The translations under genes and the position numbers were made by a program. A model generated the notes under the pieces. The model worked only from the letters and a program-made list of their open reading frames with translations, was not told the DNA's origin and ran no database searches. 64,000 nt of DNA from Pontiella desulfatans (GTDB lineage: Bacteria > Verrucomicrobiota > Kiritimatiellia > Kiritimatiellales > Pontiellaceae): NCBI RefSeq assembly GCF_900890425.1, contig NZ_CAAHFG010000004.1, positions 850,330 through 914,329 on the forward strand, written 5' to 3'. Shown in pieces: positions 40,933 to 43,118 of the stretch. Position 1 is the stretch's first letter. Every line of letters begins with the position of its first letter.

Positions 40933-40983
40933 GGTGTCGCAGTCTGCGGAAGGAGACCTGAGGGTACAAGATTAATTGACAGC

Positions 40984-41041
40984 TGACCGAATTTTGAATA
41001 ATACGGTCATCGTCATGACTGTATTTGTTGGAATACGGTCA
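40984..41041. promoter_or_regulatory. 16-bp-period operator array in front of the DUF4143 ATPase
   Basis: A ten-base word occurs four times with starts exactly 16 bases apart, alternating in orientation: TGACCGAATT (40984), AATACGGTCA (41000), TGACTGTATT (41016), AATACGGTCA (41032). The words pair into two 26-bp dyads 32 bases apart. A TTGACA (40976) and AATAAT (40997) promoter-like pair overlaps the first dyad. The array ends 18 bases before the ATG at 41060. Autorepression or regulation by an unlinked dimer is likely. Confidence 0.7.
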
Positions 41042-41059
41042 GTTTTGGGGCGAAAAACC

Positions 41060-42193
41060 ATGTATGTTCCACAGGCACAACTGAAAAACCTGGAGAAGCT
41101 GGTACTTCCGGGTAAGGCTTTGATTGTTTACGGTGCGCGCCAGACCGGAAAAACAACGCTGGTTAAACGCTATTGCGAGTCGGTCAATGAATCCTATCTT
41201 TATGTCGATGGTGAGGATTTAGCCGTTCGGGATGCTTTGGAGAGCCATTCAGTGGAACGGTTGAAGGCGTTTGTTGGAGCCAATCGGTTACTGGTGGTTG
41301 ACGAGGCCCAGAGCATTCGGAAAATCGGGCGAAACCTTAAATTACTGATCGATCATGTGCCGGATTTGAAAATCATCGCCACGGGCTCTTCCTCGTTCGA
41401 GTTGGCCAAGGATGTTGGCGAGCCATTGACGGGCCGTAGCTATGTTTTGCACATGTATCCGTTGGCGCAGTTAGAGTTGGCATCGATGGAAAACCGCCAT
41501 GAAACCGAGTCGTGCCTTGAGGAGCGGTTGGTCTACGGGAGTTATCCCGAAGTTGTGCTGCTTCGGGATGATTCACTTCGGAAACGGCACCTTTCGACGA
41601 TGGTGGGAGTCTATCTCTTCAAGGATATCCTTGCGCACGAGAACGTTCGCGACTCGGATAAGCTGAGGCGGTTGCTGCAGCTTTTGGCCTTTCAGATTGG
41701 TAAAGATGTTTCGCACAATGAACTGGCCACGCAGTTGGGTATGAGCAAGAACACCGTGGCCCGATATCTGGATCTTCTGGAGAAGGTTTTTGTGATCTTC
41801 CACCGCAACGGATTTAGTCGGAATCTGCGCAAGGAGCTTTCCAAGAGCAATCGCTATTACTTCTTCGACAATGGAGTAAGGAATGCCCTGATCAATAATT
41901 TTAATCCACTAAGCCTGCGGGATGATGCTGGTTTGCTATGGGAAAACTATGTGGTTTCCGAGCGGTTAAAGCGGAATGAGTATGGGGGGCTGTTCGTGTC
42001 GTCCTGGTTTTGGCGAACGTATGACCGCAAGGAGATCGACTTGGTTGAGGAATCCGGGGGGCAGCTCCGCGGTTACGAGATGAAGTGGAAGGAGGCGCGA
42101 AAGACCAGCGCGCCAACCGACTGGGTGAAACAATACCCAGAGGCGACGTTTGAGGTGGTTCACCCCGGAAACTATCTGCCCTTTATCACCTAG
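41060..42193 (+). CDS. ATPase of the AAA_14/DUF4143 family
   Basis: 377 residues. The N-terminal AAA+ domain has Walker A YGARQTGKTT and Walker B RLLVVDEAQS. A winged-helix-like middle (NELATQLGMSKNTVARYLDLL) comes next, then the DUF4143 end with a PD-(D/E)XK-like pattern, KEIDLVEESGG and YEMKW. The family is widespread, often multi-copy and uncharacterised. ATG 41060 was chosen since the frame upstream runs through the operator array. The gene stands alone behind that array. Confidence 0.85.
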   Translation: MYVPQAQLKNLEKLVLPGKALIVYGARQTGKTTLVKRYCESVNESYLYVDGEDLAVRDALESHSVERLKAFVGANRLLVVDEAQSIRKIGRNLKLLIDHVPDLKIIATGSSSFELAKDVGEPLTGRSYVLHMYPLAQLELASMENRHETESCLEERLVYGSYPEVVLLRDDSLRKRHLSTMVGVYLFKDILAHENVRDSDKLRRLLQLLAFQIGKDVSHNELATQLGMSKNTVARYLDLLEKVFVIFHRNGFSRNLRKELSKSNRYYFFDNGVRNALINNFNPLSLRDDAGLLWENYVVSERLKRNEYGGLFVSSWFWRTYDRKEIDLVEESGGQLRGYEMKWKEARKTSAPTDWVKQYPEATFEVVHPGNYLPFIT

Positions 42194-42197
42194 GCCA

Positions 42198-43118
42198 ATG
42201 GAAACGACGAATCAACATTCTTTAATAGTGGATAACGGTCAGGCGAAGTCGCGGCTGGATGCCTTCCTGGCCTCGGTGGAGCCGAAGGTCTCGCGCTCGG
42301 CGTGGAAGGCGCTGATTATGGAGGGGCTGGTGACGGTGAACGGCGCGGCCAGCAAACCCAACCAAAAGCTGAAGACGGGCGACGCGGTGGCATGGACGAT
42401 CCCGAACCGGGCACCGGTTGCGGCGATCCCCGAGGAGATGCCGCTTAACATTCTCTTCGAGGATGAAGCGGTGATCGTGCTGAACAAGCCGCCGGGGCTG
42501 GTGGTGCATCCGGCGGCCGGGAATCCATCCGGCACGTTGCTGCACGGCTTGCTGTTCCACGATCCGGCGTTCCAGACGCTGGAACGCGCGGGCATCGTGC
42601 ACCGGCTCGACAAGGATACGAGCGGCGTGATGGTGGTGGCCAAGACCGAGGCGGCGATGGCCCACCTGCAGGCGCAGTTCAAAGGGCGCCAGACCGAAAA
42701 GGAATACCTCGCCCTGGTCTGGGGCGAGCCGCCGAAAAGCGGCCGGATCCAAACCCTGCTGGGGCGCCATCCGGTGCACCGCAAGAAGCAGGCGGTGCTG
42801 AAGGAGGAGGGCCGCGAGGCGATCTCGAACTATGAGCTCGTGGAGCAGTTTCCCGAAGCGGCGCTCATGCGCGTTGGGATCGAGACGGGGCGCACGCACC
42901 AGATCCGCGTGCACATGGCGCACATCCGGCATCCGATCGTTGGCGACACGGTCTATGGCCGCGCCCGGAAAAACCGGTTGCCGGTCGAGCCGGGGCGGCA
43001 GATGCTGCACGCCGCCAAGCTCACGTTCAACCACCCGGAGTCCGGGAAAAGGCTTTCCTTCGAAGCCCCCTTGTTCGATGATATGCGCCAACTTTTGGAA
43101 TCTCTACGGAACGGATAA
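42198..43118 (+). CDS. RluA-family pseudouridine synthase
   Basis: 306 residues. An N-terminal S4 RNA-binding domain (SRSAWKALIMEGLVTVNG) precedes the catalytic domain, with the active Asp in HRLDKDTSGVMVVAK and the conserved GRTHQIRVHMAH. The S4 domain suggests an RluD/RluC-type rRNA target. The stop overlaps the next ATG (TAATG), so it is coupled with the glycosylase gene. Confidence 0.92.
   Translation: METTNQHSLIVDNGQAKSRLDAFLASVEPKVSRSAWKALIMEGLVTVNGAASKPNQKLKTGDAVAWTIPNRAPVAAIPEEMPLNILFEDEAVIVLNKPPGLVVHPAAGNPSGTLLHGLLFHDPAFQTLERAGIVHRLDKDTSGVMVVAKTEAAMAHLQAQFKGRQTEKEYLALVWGEPPKSGRIQTLLGRHPVHRKKQAVLKEEGREAISNYELVEQFPEAALMRVGIETGRTHQIRVHMAHIRHPIVGDTVYGRARKNRLPVEPGRQMLHAAKLTFNHPESGKRLSFEAPLFDDMRQLLESLRNG

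Follow-up and report, generated by a model that had tools for sequence, protein, structure and literature searches.

PDC-S01, described as an ATPase fused to a PD-(D/E)XK domain, is reported to rank fourth in frequency among the candidate defence systems of prokaryotes (PMC12988326). Approximately 29,500 bacterial and 10,000 archaeal occurrences have been counted, and it remains a candidate without validated function, validation being pending for most such candidates (PMC12988326). In open-access full text, nothing was found on DNA binding by PDC-S01, nor on an operator, its autoregulation or a recognition code. Here, a stretch of 64,000 nucleotides from the genome of Pontiella desulfatans (contig NZ_CAAHFG010000004.1, positions 850,330 to 914,329; this whole stretch is called the window and supplies the numbering) was investigated, in which the gene of an AAA_14-DUF4143 ATPase of the PDC-S01 type is preceded by an array of four alternating words that is probably its own operator. 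PDC-S01 is represented in PADLOC by the models PDLC04786-04792 (AAA_14 + DUF4143), and the protein shares with them a full-length match to PDLC04789 (residues 4-376, E 3e-148). A PDC-S01 model matched in 11 of 11 aligned proteins tested. The Pfam matches reached 95.0 bits for PF13173 (AAA_14; gathering score 27) and 143.4 bits for PF13635 (DUF4143; gathering score 28.1).

Among described systems, the archaeal AAA+/STAND ATPases SSO1545 (2fna) and PABY2304 (2qen) share the P-loop and winged-helix fold with this protein but are only 18-19% identical to it. To our knowledge, DNA reading by the winged helix of these two proteins is not known. IniR of mycobacteria, a signal-transduction ATPase and transcription regulator, is similar in being an SSO1545-like ATPase that controls transcription, but it has a separate C-terminal SdiA-like DNA-binding domain, senses trehalose and controls another operon (PMC5760070). 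The RepA/ParA proteins of plasmid partition operons are ATPases that repress their own promoter and have their own operator in each copy (PMC4492784). They belong, however, to another ATPase class and are tied to segregation genes, which are absent here.

The array at 40984-41041 is made up of four words of 10 bp. They start exactly 16 bp apart, and the strand flips from each word to the next. Two 26-bp dyads are thereby formed (40984-41009 and 41016-41041), with starts 32 bp apart, and the array ends 18 bp upstream of the ATG at 41060. The sequence-only reading, made from the letters of the window before this analysis, had described this geometry and this distance correctly; it had also taken all four words to be identical, whereas two are exact and the other two carry one mismatch each. 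The array and the features next to it are as follows.

40984 to 40993, plus strand: half-site 1, TGACCGAATT, from the window sequence
41000 to 41009, minus strand: half-site 2, TGACCGTATT, from the window sequence
41016 to 41025, plus strand: half-site 3, TGACTGTATT, from the window sequence
41032 to 41041, minus strand: half-site 4, TGACCGTATT, from the window sequence
40981 to 41044, no strand: whole lattice of four 16-bp cells, with neighbouring cells reverse-complementary to each other, from the lattice fit (-79 to -15 from the ATG)
40976 to 41002, plus strand: promoter-like TTGACA (40976-40981) and AATAAT (40997-41002), from the sequence, overlapped by the first dyad
41060 to 42193, plus strand: gene of the AAA_14-DUF4143 ATPase, 377 amino acids, PDC-S01 type, from Pfam and PADLOC profile matches

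The promoter overlap that had been proposed was borne out in part. Both hexamers are present, but their spacer of 15 bp is short and a promoter scanner accepting spacers of 16-18 bp made no call for the pair. None of 100 dinucleotide shuffles of the window matched the observed number of word matches. The three-site score of the array was 28, and approximately 3,040 shuffles of the upstream regions of the family never gave a period-16 score of at least 24. That the array is real and not a product of chance is confirmed. A scan of the 8.66-Mb genome for the dyad, allowing up to 3 mismatches, revealed no copy besides the array, and no copies of the word were found near paralogues in the same genome, where the sequence-only reading had suggested looking for them.

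Homologues (36-63% identity) came from contigs of public genomes, from genomes of the same phylum, of Bacteroidota and of Chloroflexota, from plasmids and from one metagenomic phage contig, and 152 distinct upstream regions of relatives were compared. Three alternating 10-bp sites were scored at each spacing from 11 to 40 bp with dinucleotide shuffles as control. At period 16, a score of at least 22 was reached in 83 of the 152 regions against 0.7 expected from the shuffles, and at least 24 in 66, a level not seen in the shuffles. Other periods scored high in 0-11 regions, except for the 32-bp harmonic. The lattice was confined to the promoter side of the gene: 83 occurrences were in the 150 bp before the gene and 1 in the next 150 bp upstream, with 0 each in the early coding sequence, the middle of the coding sequence and the downstream regions of the relatives. 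The fitted arrays contained 2-8 cells, mostly 4, in both registers and with odd cell numbers included; their median end was 27 bp before the start codon, often they came within 15 bp of it, and the longest, of 8 cells, extended to -150. In Bacteroidota, the -7 motif TAnnTTTG was located inside the array or just downstream. The geometry is thus conserved across phyla, but the word is not. The case in the earlier reading had hung on the array being kept upstream of orthologues, and it is the alternating 16-bp architecture, not the ten letters, that has been kept.

The word variants ranged from TGACCGTATT through TTGCCGAATT, TCACCAAAAA and TCGCAAAAAA to TCTAAAAATT. A T at base 1 and an A/T tail were common to the arrays, and bases 2-5 varied. 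Arrays were fitted and words oriented without protein information. In a partial Mantel analysis, word similarity was compared with protein similarity along the chain after removal of overall relatedness. The only strong association was at residues 222-231 (r 0.37); elsewhere no window exceeded 0.13, and the permutations reached 0.17 at most. The three single residues among 377 that were most strongly associated with the word were 229, 230 and 231, which lie in the predicted helix-turn-helix of the ATPase.

41714 to 41785, plus strand: helix-turn-helix, helices 219-226 and 230-242, from the AlphaFold2 model and from matches to Pfam HTH_11 and HTH_24 below the cut-off
41744 to 41752, plus strand: candidate specificity residues S229-K230-N231, N-cap and first turn of the recognition helix, from covariation and the model

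Base 2 of the word paired with residue 229 (r 0.66), base 3 with residue 231 (r 0.61) and base 4 with residue 230 (r 0.42), one residue to each base. For many residues the pairing was nearly deterministic. A D at residue 229 was accompanied by C at base 2 in 39/39 cases and an A by T in 6/6; at residue 231, N went with A at base 3 (25/25), K with C (19/19), H with C (5/5) and I with A (4/4). Taken as triplets in the fitted arrays, SKN gave a word starting TGAC in 15/15, including the protein studied here, SRN gave TGAA in 4/4 and DKN gave TCAC in 5/5. Contacts of N with A, of K or H with G on the other strand and of E or D with C on the other strand are classical in protein-DNA recognition. 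In 43 disjoint pairs of nearest relatives, the residue and base changes coincided (Fisher p 7e-7, 2e-5 and 0.013). Leave-one-out prediction with training proteins below 55% identity gave bases 2-4 correctly from residues 229-231 in 53%. The nearest neighbour by whole protein gave 26%, and none of 60 random control triplets exceeded 25%. In 21 held-out proteins for which no array had been fitted, the upstream lattice geometry contained the predicted word better than in 500 of 500 permutations. The covariation survives both the phylogenetic and the held-out tests, and from it a putative DNA code of the family is readable from sequence.

An active divergence of words between copies resident in the same genome was considered but not supported: 3 of 36 co-resident pairs shared the triple against 8.7% of random pairs, and the words differed in 33/36, no more than between random pairs.

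We assign a probability of about 0.87 to the reading in which the array serves as an autoregulatory operator, bound by the winged helix-turn-helix of the ATPase that is encoded just downstream. The ATPase itself is proposed as the binder because the word covaries with residues 229, 230 and 231; the sequence-only reading had named the same helix-turn-helix-like segment as a possible binder, and the one-to-one covariation found there agrees with it. Repression is favoured because the arrays sit on promoter motifs. The family would almost certainly control its own promoter, and the ATPase is most likely a cooperative autorepressor; the cooperative operator proposed earlier is to this extent supported. 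The sequence shows the lattice, its location, its uniqueness in the genome and the residue-base code; that the protein physically binds, that it does so cooperatively, that it represses and that any of this is linked to defence is inferred.

The circuit may be depicted as follows. The AAA_14/DUF4143 ATPase would bind its own promoter through the winged helix-turn-helix, one subunit to each 16-bp cell, with residues 229, 231 and 230 contacting bases 2, 3 and 4 of the word and the A/T-rich tail contacted less specifically. From 2 to 8 successive cells would be filled, each subunit facing opposite to the next; with one dyad every 32 bp, or roughly three turns of the helix, binding should be steeply cooperative. 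By covering the promoter-like hexamers, the first dyad would cause repression, which would hold down the level of the ATPase-nuclease until release or titration of the protein.

Several observations weigh against this picture. The winged helix of STAND ATPases usually has a regulatory and not a DNA-reading role, and a DNA-reading role would therefore depart from the nearest folds. The sigma-70-like hexamers are spaced by 15 bp. About 60 of the 152 relatives lack a confidently fitted array, and the closest relative (L032, 63% identity) displays at best one weak dyad, seen by eye as TAACCGAATT GATGCA AATTGGGTCA; on account of both, the operator circuit may have been reduced or lost in some lineages. 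The Thermus DUF4143 gene TT_P0211 was among the genes that rose in wild-type cells carrying a plasmid in a transcriptome study (PMC4406477), an expression change that says nothing on the cause or the direction of control.

The strongest of the other explanations agrees that the protein binds its own promoter but makes it an activator, in a positive loop with a switch threshold. Long upstream arrays, of up to 8 cells and reaching -150, could recruit polymerase in such a loop. The arrays overlap or touch core promoter motifs, however, often within 15 bp of the start codon, which favours occlusion, and activation is considered improbable.

The position of the gene bears on two further explanations. 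In congeners, the cinA-like gene adjoins the rluD-like gene with approximately 36 bp between them and no ATPase gene, and because of this empty site the array and gene together are read as one single-gene insertion of approximately 1.26 kb with approximate ends.

approximately 40933 to 42197, plus strand: insertion (array and gene) between a cinA-like gene (minus strand) and an rluD-like gene (plus strand), from the comparison with congeners

Such a clean insertion would also fit an array that marks the end or target site of a mobile element, with the ATPase-nuclease serving for mobility in the manner of TnsA plus TnsC of Tn7 or of a homing system, and with the promoter overlap incidental. The sporadic and multicopy occurrence of the family, the conserved AAA and PD-(D/E)XK-type residues and a second array or dyad approximately 400 bp upstream in two genomes would fit as well. 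Yet no array was found at the gene 3' end (0/147) or at the empty sites, the insertion contains no transposase, no target duplication was seen, and the array stops close to the start codon, over promoter motifs. We regard mobility as having only a slight chance of being the explanation.

Even less probable is a separate regulator, encoded elsewhere, that binds the array and controls the ATPase gene. Dedicated regulators do control many defence genes, such as WYL-domain proteins (PMC9122601) and RptR (PMC12255303). Against such a regulator, the word changes base by base with three residues of the ATPase in copies that are scattered horizontally, the insertion brings in one gene with its array and no partner, and the array words are enriched only at the ATPase gene.

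That the dyads are hairpins of the 5'-leader RNA or DNA cruciforms, although each could give a 10-bp stem with a 6-nt loop, is hardly credible, as hairpins need neither a word shared between dyads nor one 16-bp lattice in both registers with odd cell numbers, no Rfam match was found, and the covariation of the word with the helix-turn-helix residues largely refutes it. For the residue-base code, the separate regulator, the hairpin and the mobility end offer a poor explanation or none.

The rluD-like gene starts with an ATG at 42198, 4 bp past the ATPase stop, and because of this proximity the ATPase promoter may now drive the rluD-like gene.

The ATPase displayed further conserved features in its N-terminal and C-terminal parts.

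41132 to 41155, plus strand: Walker A GARQTGKT, residues 25-32, from alignments, near-invariant in the 152 relatives
41300 to 41311, plus strand: Walker B/DEAQ, residues 81-84, from alignments
42014 to 42085, plus strand: R319...E325-x-D327...E340-x-K342, a PD-(D/E)XK-type signature in the C-terminal domain, from conservation

Residues G25, R27, K31, D81 and E82 were kept in at least 150 of the 152 relatives; R319, E325 and D327 were present in all 152, E340 in 150 and K342 in 148. The AlphaFold2 model, in which the recognition helix runs from residue 230, had a mean predicted local distance difference test score (pLDDT) of 80.6 (73.6 for the C-terminal domain). Its best matches among solved folds were SSO1545 (Z 15.4) and PABY2304 (Z 15.3), over 255 residues at 3.4-3.6 Å, followed after the archaeal ATPases by NLR/apoptosome ATPases. 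In the model, the P-loop and winged helix are arranged as in 2fna and 2qen, a likeness of fold only. A search by sequence for a homologous solved structure gave generic P-loop matches only. Beside the PD-(D/E)XK-type motif, Y321 (42020-42022) occurred together with a T at word base 10 in 41/41 arrays. The association was weaker in independent pairs (Fisher p 0.0095), and it may reflect a clade effect or a further contact of the C-terminal domain with DNA.

Carriers of the family were found in 46 of 388 genomes of the own phylum, 48 of 395 of Bacteroidota and 6 of 301 of Chloroflexota. The distribution is patchy, and some genomes contain four or five copies. Phages were considered as the main carriers and rejected, as protein and profile searches of viral contigs gave one distant partial match only.

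In two genomes a distal element accompanied the promoter-proximal one. At L284 (Bacteroidota genome G534), arrays of the same word were located at 1469-1526 and 1886-1943, one of them approximately 400 bp upstream of the promoter-proximal one, and a similar distal dyad was found approximately 400 bp upstream at L293 (G444). The distal array is a possible looping operator or an element end. Two identical TGACGGAATG-N6-AATTCAGTCA dyads were also detected in G534, 17 kb apart (C1:3764594 and 3781668) and off any known DUF4143 array, possibly a duplicated element or another target.

The genome of P. desulfatans (G000) contains 13 DUF4143 domain matches, and several of those examined have unrelated upstream dyads, which suggests that self-control may be widespread in the DUF4143 superfamily, with geometries other than this one. 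Among seven paralogues whose upstream regions were examined (23-29% identity), other dyads were seen and L007 alone had the 16-bp geometry. This distant paralogue (approximately 29% identity, C3 near 240038) carries a perfect dyad, AAAATACGGA-ATAGAT-TCCGTATTTT, just before its start codon. Because only 4 of 54 distant DUF4143 proteins had a three-site 16-bp array, with no other period except one case at 32, the lattice belongs mainly to the subfamily of the ATPase studied here.

A more far-reaching proposal, which we consider doubtful, is that PDC-S01 forms an ATP-dependent, lattice-nucleated assembly on its own promoter. The promoter would then serve a STAND-like ATPase-nuclease as off-switch and as storage site at the same time. 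Infection or a change of nucleotide state would release the protein and immediately raise its expression, and the simple three-residue code would let many mutually blind copies coexist in one cell.

For PDC-S01, the autoregulatory reading provides a concrete biochemical handle, namely predicted binding to a defined DNA lattice whose target word is predictable from three residues, and a binding assay could be run on many members in parallel. A STAND-like ATPase may, on this reading, use its winged helix to read DNA, and the differences between words show how many horizontally spreading copies could coexist.
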